64,000 nucleotides of DNA from Microbacteriaceae bacterium (GTDB lineage: Bacteria > Actinomycetota > Actinomycetes > Actinomycetales > Microbacteriaceae): positions 1 to 64,000 of the forward strand of contig CANGDL010000001.1 in NCBI GenBank assembly GCA_947452675.1, given 5' to 3'. The notes beneath the pieces are model-generated. The model did not search any database. It was not told the origin of the DNA and saw only the letters and a program-made list of their open reading frames with translations. The position numbers and the translations under genes are program-made. Shown here one piece after another: positions 32,238 to 34,298 of this stretch (position 1 is its first letter; the number at the start of each line of letters is the position of its first letter).

Positions 32238-32588
32238 ATGGCACTTTCAGATCGCGAACAAAGACTTCTTGATGAACTCGAACGCGGCCTGTATGCCTCA
32301 GATCCAAATCTTGCCCACAAAATTAGCAGCTCGGGAGCCAGAACACCGGCGAGATTGATTGCCGGCCTTGTTATTAGCCTTATCGGCGTCTCATTAATCG
32401 TTTTCGCGGTGATGATTCAGGTCGCATTCTTCGGCGTGTTCGCGTTTCTCGTAATGCTAACGGGTCTGATTGTTGCAAGCTCGAACCTCACAGCAAGCGC
32501 AGAGCGAGGCGCAAAATCATCGGCCGGCCCGAAATCTCAGTCGCGAAATGTATTTGAGGAACGCTGGAACAGGCGCCAGGGAGAATAG
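32238..32588 (+). CDS. DUF3040 membrane protein
   Basis: 116 aa from the ATG at 32238 with GGAGGA upstream; the track start (TTG 32211) is rejected because of that RBS. The protein begins MALSDREQRLLDELERGLYASDPNLA, the DUF3040 signature. Two adjacent hydrophobic segments follow (about 38-82), then a polar tail ending FEERWNRRQGE. This family occurs next to mraZ in actinobacteria. Function is unknown; a division or wall role is inferred from location only. A strong terminator follows, so it is not in the mraZ transcript. Confidence 0.88.
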   Translation: MALSDREQRLLDELERGLYASDPNLAHKISSSGARTPARLIAGLVISLIGVSLIVFAVMIQVAFFGVFAFLVMLTGLIVASSNLTASAERGAKSSAGPKSQSRNVFEERWNRRQGE

Positions 32589-32608
32589 CTTCATTTACCT
32601 CCACCAAC

Positions 32609-32640
32609 ACTCTCGAACTTAGGTTTGAGAGTATTTTTTT
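32609..32640 (+). terminator. intrinsic terminator after the DUF3040 gene
   Basis: ACTCTCGAAC pairs with GTTTGAGAGT (one G-T pair) across a TTAG loop and is followed by A and seven Ts. This is the most classical intrinsic terminator in the window and isolates the dcw cluster from upstream transcription. Confidence 0.93.
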
Positions 32641-32653
32641 GCCCATTTTTGGT

Positions 32654-32680
32654 CCACTTCGAACCATTTTCCTCCACTCG
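32654..32680 (-). promoter_or_regulatory. reverse-oriented array of three MraZ-like boxes
   Basis: Read on the minus strand, CGAGTGG, AAAATGG and GAAGTGG recur at exact 10-bp intervals (+ strand 32674-32680, 32664-32670, 32654-32660), each separated by three bases. They resemble the forward array upstream of mraZ. Established MraZ sites are direct repeats with this spacing, but a second inverted array is not something I know from other genomes. Confidence 0.5.
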
Positions 32681-32720
32681 TTATATCCCTGTTACTTATT
32701 GGTAATTACGACACGCCGGG

Positions 32721-32748
32721 TGTGAAAACAAGGTAAAAATATTAGGTT
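32721..32748 (+). promoter_or_regulatory. putative mraZ promoter
   Basis: TGTGAA (32721-32726) and TAGGTT (32743-32748) with a 16-bp spacer are a plausible -35/-10 pair in an AT-rich stretch between the two box arrays. Transcription would begin near 32755, inside the forward boxes, which suits repression by MraZ. The hexamers are weak matches. Confidence 0.4.
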
Positions 32749-32783
32749 TGTGGAACAAAGTGGGGTAAAGTGGAGTAAAGCGG
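32747..32783 (+). promoter_or_regulatory. MraZ operator: four boxes at 10-bp spacing
   Basis: TTTGTGG, AAAGTGG, AAAGTGG and AAAGCGG lie at 32747, 32757, 32767 and 32777, each followed by three spacer bases. This equals the known MraZ recognition pattern (AAAGTG[G/T] repeated with 3-base spacers) and lies just upstream of mraZ. The first and last boxes are degenerate. Confidence 0.85.
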
Positions 32784-32808: not shown

Positions 32809-33243
32809 ATGATGCTTCTAGGTCAGCACTCACCAAAGTTGGACGAGAAAGGGCGCGTCATTCTCCCTGCCAAATTCCGCGAGGAGCTTCAGGGCGGTTT
32901 GGTTATCACTCGCGGTCAAGATCGCTGCCTGTTCGTTTTTAGCGCCGCAGAGTTCGCTCTGGTCAACGACAAGATTCGTCAGGCTCCAGTAACCAATGCG
33001 GAAGCGCGCAACTACCTACGAGTTTTTCTGTCCGGAGCTTCCGATGAACAGCCAGACAAGCAAGGTCGAGTAACAATCCCGGCCACGTTGCGTCAGTATG
33101 CGGGCCTTGACAAAGACCTCGTAGTTGTCGGTGTCGGCAACCGTGCCGAGATCTGGGACGCCAAGGCCTGGAGCGAATTCCTGAATACTCACGAAGCCTC
33201 ATTCTCGAATGTTTCGGAGGAGGTGATTCCTGGACTCTTCTAG
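32809..33243 (+). CDS. mraZ: MraZ, transcriptional regulator of the dcw cluster
   Basis: 143-144 aa; two adjacent ATGs (32809, 32812) follow AGGGGG. Two SpoVT/AbrB-like swapped-hairpin halves are visible, each with a DxKGRVxxPA(K/T) core: [13 protein letters not shown] near 13-25 and [13 protein letters not shown] near 83-95. MraZ forms a ring that binds direct repeats at its own promoter and represses the cluster. The matching operator lies directly upstream. Confidence 0.95.
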
Positions 33244-33335: not shown

Positions 33336-34298
33336 ATGTCGAAGAAGATTTCTGAACTACACGCTCCTGTAACTCTGGAACGAACCATCGAACTTCTAGC
33401 CCCCGCTCTCGAGGTCGAAGGTGCAGTTTTCGTCGACGGCACGCTGGGTCTAGGCGGTCACAGCGAAGCTTTTCTGGAGCGTTTCCCAAAGCTAATCCTC
33501 ATAGGAATCGACCGAGACACCAACGCGTTGGAGCTTGCTGGGGAACGCCTTGCCCGTTTCAGCGATCGCATTCACCTCGTTCACGCCGTCTATGAAGAAA
33601 TCGAAGATGTCCTTGATGAACTAGACATCGATGAGGTGCAGGGGATCCTGCTCGACCTAGGCGTTTCATCGATGCAGCTGGATGAGGCCGACCGCGGTTT
33701 TGCCTATTCCTACGAAGCTCCACTAGACATGCGCATGGATGCAACTCAGGGTAAGACCGCAGCTGACATTGTGAACTCCTACTCGGAGCAGGAATTAGCT
33801 CGAATCTTCAAGGAATTCGGTGAGGAACGCTACGCCAAGGGTGTTGCCAAGGCCATCGTCGAAGCGCGAAAGACCATCCAGTTCAGCACCAGTACTCAGC
33901 TTGCCGGTCTGATCGCCAAGGTGATCCCATTCATACCAGGCAAGAGTAGTGGCCACCCAGCAAAGCGAGTTTTCCAGGCTCTACGCATCGAGGTAAACGG
34001 GGAACTTGAGGTGCTTGAGCGAACCATGCCAGCTTCAATTCGCGCGCTTGCCGTCGGCGGGAGAATCGTCGTCTTGTCTTACCACTCGCTCGAAGATCGA
34101 ATCGTAAAGCAGGCGCTTGTCGCCGCAGCGAATTCATCTGCTCCGCTAGAGCTCCCATTTGAACTTCCAGAGCACGCTCCGGTCCTGCGCCTTTTGGTGA
34201 AGGGTGCCGAAGCTGCCACCGCCGAAGAAATCGCCACAAACCCACGAGCCGCATCGGTGCGACTGCGTGCAGCAGAAAAGATCCGGAGAGCAGCATGA
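33336..34298 (+). CDS. rsmH: 16S rRNA C1402 N4-methyltransferase RsmH
   Basis: 320 aa. [16 protein letters not shown] at the start and the SAM loop [12 protein letters not shown] near 32-43; later [14 protein letters not shown] and the [10 protein letters not shown] motif. It methylates N4 of C1402 of 16S rRNA. Second gene of the dcw cluster as usual. A gap of 92 bases separates it from mraZ and holds no recognisable signal beyond a weak RBS. Its stop overlaps the next ATG (ATGA). Confidence 0.95.

Follow-up and report, generated by a model that had tools for sequence, protein, structure and literature searches.

The mraZ promoter region of this Microbacteriaceae bacterium carries two arrays of MraZ-type boxes in opposite orientations, and the second, inverted array is conserved with its 10-bp phase across the family and the order. 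The best explanation, which we rate somewhat better than an even bet, is that the inverted array serves as an auxiliary operator for MraZ; it would share a face of the DNA with the promoter operator, its partner, and MraZ could bridge the two. A sequence-only reading of the window (the whole stretch of DNA analyzed, 64,000 nucleotides) had noticed both arrays and knew of no described inverted double array. We likewise found no earlier description of an inverted MraZ array in the open-access papers searched, where the MraZ sites described are direct repeats only. The elements of the locus are as follows, in window positions.

32241–32588, plus strand: DUF3040 gene (PF11239), the co-directional upstream neighbor
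32589–32604, minus strand: possible distal inverted array of two boxes, GTGGAGGTAAATGAAG, immediately behind the stop codon of DUF3040
32609–32632, plus strand: intrinsic terminator of the DUF3040 gene, followed by a T run
32654–32680, minus strand: inverted (candidate auxiliary) MraZ array of three boxes, stepped by 10 bp and without a -10 (direct reading; family and order conservation)
32654–32660, 32664–32670 and 32674–32680, minus strand: the inverted boxes GAAGTGG, AAAATGG and CGAGTGG (direct reading)
32684–32705, no strand assigned: third conserved element, TATCCCTGTTACTTATTGGTAA, between the arrays, conserved in family, order and class
32747–32783, plus strand: main MraZ array, in forward orientation, of four boxes stepped by 10 bp (direct reading; position weight matrix of 224 loci)
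32747–32753, 32757–32763, 32767–32773 and 32777–32783, plus strand: the forward boxes TTTGTGG, AAAGTGG, AAAGTGG and AAAGCGG (direct reading)
32766–32771, plus strand: inferred mraZ -10, TAAAGT, within the forward array (alternative TAAAGC, 32776–32781)
32809–33243, plus strand: mraZ, dcw-cluster regulator of the AbrB/SpoVT fold (TIGR00242, 131 bits against a cut-off of 98; PF02381 in two stretches)
33336–34298, plus strand: rsmH (mraW), the next dcw gene (TIGR00006, PF01795)

Read base by base, the DNA bears out the layout first described: four forward and three minus-strand boxes, each set at exact 10-bp steps, with 66 bp between the arrays. The distance from the last forward box to the first mraZ ATG (32809) is 25 bp and had been given as 26. 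In minus-strand reading order the inverted boxes are CGAGTGG, AAAATGG and GAAGTGG, with cores GTGG, ATGG and GTGG. Both arrays have the makeup of MraZ operators. The forward array has four GTG-type 7-base boxes at the mraZ promoter, all in the same direction and separated by 3-base spacers (an operator of this kind has three or more), and the inverted array repeats GTG-type boxes with 3-base spacers. When the intergenic region was shuffled 3,000 times with dinucleotides preserved, a minus-strand triple of comparable quality turned up in a fraction of 3e-4. Across the 1.395-Mb genome, GTGG-N6-GTGG-N6-GTGG with at most one mismatch occurs at 10 sites, 3 of which are these arrays. The possible distal pair at 32589–32604, absent from the sequence-only reading, is weaker than the main inverted array; it has one mismatch to the family motif, of which it is the sole match in the genome, and a counterpart exists in 33 of the 91 other family loci.

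The gene downstream is identified as mraZ by its equivalog match, its two MraZ domains and its place as the first dcw gene, followed by rsmH and further dcw genes. It opens with ATGATG (32809–32814), and since alignments with most relatives begin at residue 2 or 3, the true start may be 32812.

Conservation was assessed in 224 mraZ upstream regions. Of these, 36 come from the window's genus and 91 from elsewhere in the family; the order contributes a further 23 from its other families, and the remaining 74 represent the class beyond the order. Among relatives with a name, those nearest to the window are freshwater Microbacteriaceae; one of them, Rhodoluna, has 80–82% MraZ identity. For the 250 bp that precede the forward array, GTGG pairs were tallied on both strands at steps of 5–30 bp and compared with dinucleotide shuffles. 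On the minus strand, pairs at step 10 numbered 62 in the family (0.5 expected), 30 in the order (0.6 expected) and 26 in the class (0.8 expected); the corresponding plus-strand counts were 0, 1 and 23, the last of which is ascribed to lineages with upstream-extended forward arrays. One family of the set (f40; loci L067–L073 and L075–L083) is without the inverted array and has plus-strand GTGG-type boxes reaching far upstream of its forward array. The spacing of a second inverted box from the proximal one is strict: of 81 family loci, 51 have such a box at offset 10, and almost none occur at any other offset. Two-box inverted arrays within 60–260 bp are common in the rest of the family (75 of 91 loci) and in the order (20 of 22), and less so in the class (18 of 73) and in the window's own genus (11 of 36). 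Their named carriers include Cellulomonas, Georgenia, Microbacterium, Gryllotalpicola and Bowdeniella. A few MAG contigs in the set (L235; L254, L255, L257, L258) are labeled Acidobacteria or Bifidobacterium breve, and these labels look doubtful; their mraZ is 65% and 56% identical to that of the window.

Loss of the minus-strand array or its phase in close relatives had been named as what would speak against the double array, and the genus gives a divided answer. A proximal inverted box of the GTGGnG type is kept in 32 of 36 relatives, in 31 of those at 83–89 bp from the anchor, whereas the second box is kept in only 9 of these 32 loci, always at exactly +10. The three inverted boxes of the window would be the rich end of a range in which two boxes are usual among relatives and one box is found in much of the genus. 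Because a single box is left in much of the genus, and none in several mraZ-bearing families of the class, the inverted array is evidently dispensable.

The inverted array also follows the presence of mraZ itself. When the box-pair motif GTGGAGGNAARTGGAG was searched with one mismatch in 60 whole genomes of the family, 87 of the 91 matches lay within ~300 bp upstream of mraZ, as judged by comparing motif-match coordinates with mraZ coordinates; at mraZ there is typically one match per strand, the two starts being separated by 97 bp. Nearly all matches to the three-box forward motif that includes the -10 were likewise at mraZ. Conversely, 18 large genomes of a single genus in family f35 (L276–L293) have rsmH and no mraZ match, and both arrays are missing from them (best inverted score 8.7, against a threshold of 18). 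The inverted array is therefore present at mraZ and missing where mraZ is missing. Upstream of rsmH these genomes still have a TTGACC...GTGGACTAAAGT promoter, with both MraZ arrays gone; in the six examples examined TTGACC...TAAAGT is kept, that is, a promoter without boxes. Escherichia coli K-12 has forward boxes only and no inverted array.

The promoter had been placed between the two arrays, and this is contradicted by the comparison. In the 224-locus matrix the TA before nnGT in the forward array is nearly invariant (0.96 and 0.98), and in the order and class TTGAC occurs ~16 bp upstream of TAnnGT. Because of these two features, and of the box-free promoter kept in the mraZ-less genomes, the -10 is assigned to the forward array; TTGAC is the putative -35, which in the order lies in or beside that array. 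A consensus promoter scan, minus strand included, gave no match at the threshold used, and the assignment of the -10 thus rests on conservation. The consensus of the inverted array, GTGGAGGGAAATGGAG, has no TA in its matrix, and the inverted array is therefore unfit to serve as the same type of promoter in reverse. Its composition is that of a putative bare operator, with no -10 of its own.

The two arrays keep a helical register. Measured from an anchor that is the same at all loci, the distance to the proximal inverted box is 87 ± 1.2 bp at 103 of 156 loci; among the rest, shifts of about −11, +11 or +22 bp are frequent. The distances of two-box arrays fall into narrow classes about 10.5–11 bp apart (69–73, 79–84, 91–95 and 102–104 bp), which hold 102 of 105 loci; the remainder lie at 116, 120 and 123 bp. 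When each of 19 families contributes a single value, R at 10.5 bp is 0.72 (Rayleigh p ~5e-5), and the phase is kept when two large clusters explicable by common descent are removed (n = 21 loci; 0.62, P ~5e-5), these statistics being approximate for loci that are related. The gain or loss of a single box also yields 10-bp steps. In the shifted loci L058 and L063, however, the neighboring third element moves together with the inverted array; the insertion there must therefore lie between the third element and the forward array, which counts against box gain or loss as the source of the steps. Two sites with helically phased spacing, as in a looping operator pair, are found here at the sequence level, and this suggests that the two arrays share one face of the helix.

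In the family Microbacteriaceae the third element takes the form TTCCGCGnnATTTCGCGG; order and class have TGACCTGCG, placed −65 or −75 relative to the anchor. It recurs in L030, L058, L059, L177 and others at a nearly fixed distance from the promoter anchor. The FtsR motif AACCCTAAAGTAAAGGTTGAGGGTA (PMC6683498) is dissimilar to it. The motif GACACGCC at 32710–32717, ~50 bp upstream of the promoter anchor, contains GACAC; in the genus it follows the third element in about half of the loci, and its ACACGC core is found in ~20 of 36. In Streptomyces, GACAC serves as the motif of WhiA (PMC3781837), and a WhiA connection at GACACGCC would be a lead only.

How might two such arrays work together? 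MraZ is an octamer that binds direct repeats of GTG boxes and represses its own cluster (PMC5282649, PMC8475190). On the forward boxes it would cover the -10 and its surroundings and so block RNA polymerase. Very probably it occupies the inverted boxes as well, some 90 bp further up. Since the two sites would face each other on the same side of the helix, the bound MraZ assemblies could touch or share subunits, and this contact would close a loop of roughly 80–100 bp. Such a loop would raise the occupancy of the promoter operator and sharpen autoregulation of the dcw cluster; we give the loop and its effect on expression about an even chance. The sequence-only reading had imagined the arrays bridged by one ring or by two. 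Joint use of the arrays is favored by their helical phasing, whereas a single closed ring is not the obvious geometry for it. DNA running round one closed ring is disfavored because it would need two arrays of the same polarity. On plane geometry only, the polarity argues for two assemblies meeting or for an opened ring. The papers behind PDB entries 9qlg, 9r4j, 9sx6, 9sz7 and 9qlr were not found, and ring–DNA geometry was taken from none of them.

It is useful to compare this arrangement with known systems. The operator pairs lac O1–O3 and gal OE–OI are DNA-looping pairs, each served by one oligomeric repressor, ~90–110 bp apart and helically phased. The mraZ arrays resemble them as two phased candidate operators of one oligomeric repressor, here known from sequence; in contrast to the lac and gal pairs, each is a polar array of several boxes, the two face each other, and the loop is a proposal. 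MraZ boxes of E. coli were reportedly treated by Eraso et al. in 2014. In E. coli and Burkholderia cenocepacia, MraZ-bound GTG repeats at 10-bp steps lie near the mraZ start site (PMC7761207); these boxes are downstream of the -10, whereas the -10 of the window would lie inside the forward array. The Mollicutes operator, (AAAGTGKN3)3, is known to us from Fisunov et al. 2016 as cited in PMC5282649 and PMC8475190. The window's forward array matches it: at the mraZ promoter, AAAGTG-type boxes are directly repeated, with spacers of 3 bases; an inverted second array is not mentioned in those citing accounts, whereas that of the window stands upstream and in phase. In Dietzia, an actinobacterium, the mraZ promoter is bound by a second regulator, MtrA (PMC9602371), a different protein from MraZ.

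The main rival to the loop is contact with RNA polymerase. The inverted array would then be a true MraZ site without a loop, from which MraZ, ~105 bp upstream of the inferred start, touches the polymerase in activation or modulation, unless the site acts as a local reservoir of MraZ; we consider such loop-free roles rather unlikely. A position fixed and phased relative to the promoter is also expected of an upstream site that contacts polymerase, and the third conserved element at −65/−75 would fit a reading without a loop. MraZ is reported as a repressor, however, which does not favor polymerase contact, and for a reservoir the phasing would be needless. Alternatively, the array could be the operator, or the relic of one, of a divergent or antisense promoter, which seems improbable. 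A MoxR-like gene does diverge upstream in several families (f5, f7, f9, f11, f14, f16, f17) and in Cellulomonas, and in the window a minus-strand TATAAC stands directly before the inverted array. But the array lacks the TAnnGT of the forward array, the scan detected no consensus promoter on the minus strand, no conserved -10 lies beside the array in the family, and the array is kept in family loci with a co-directional neighbor. DUF3040 is co-directional in the window and in the family loci where it was recognized; in L016, L019, L021–L025, L030 and L247–L249 a divergent MoxR-like AAA ATPase gene replaces it, and the inverted array is retained with either neighbor. A divergent MraZ-controlled promoter was rejected on the missing TA of the inverted matrix and the co-directional DUF3040 gene.

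Readings in which the array is not an MraZ site at all are more improbable still. It would then be a C-rich RNA signal, either for Rho loading or linked to the terminator, a hairpin formed by RNA or as a cruciform, one strand of a G-quadruplex, or a site bound by some other protein. Its place just behind an intrinsic terminator, the partial complementarity that inverted arrays have by construction, and a G-quadruplex reported downstream of the Staphylococcus aureus mraZ promoter all lend this some color, yet the 10-bp periodicity and phase to the promoter, the confinement of the motif to mraZ genome-wide, its co-absence with mraZ and the lack of any Rfam match speak against it. Within-genome spacer co-variation is absent in one register and slight in the other; a hairpin between the arrays was rejected because spacer identity within genomes barely exceeds that of shuffled sequence, with a small excess in one of the two registers. 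Least probable is that the array arose by chance, or that it is a leftover without function from the duplication and inversion of an array. The single box left in much of the window's genus is what a remnant might look like, but P is ~3e-4 for the window alone, and conservation runs through the order with position and phase fixed. Indeed, chance and relic are contradicted by the comparative data: the excess of step-10 pairs, the genome-wide matches and the order-wide phase.

Finally, MraZ is among the most widely conserved bacterial regulators, and a conserved, inverted, phase-locked candidate for a second operator lets one ask whether it bridges DNA. The question bears on what the MraZ ring gains from binding many boxes, in the setting of the gene cluster from which Actinobacteria build their cell wall and division machinery. 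As a tentative and rather doubtful generalization, MraZ in Actinobacteria may repress the division and cell-wall cluster through a short phased loop, held by two facing assemblies with the site of a third factor inside it.
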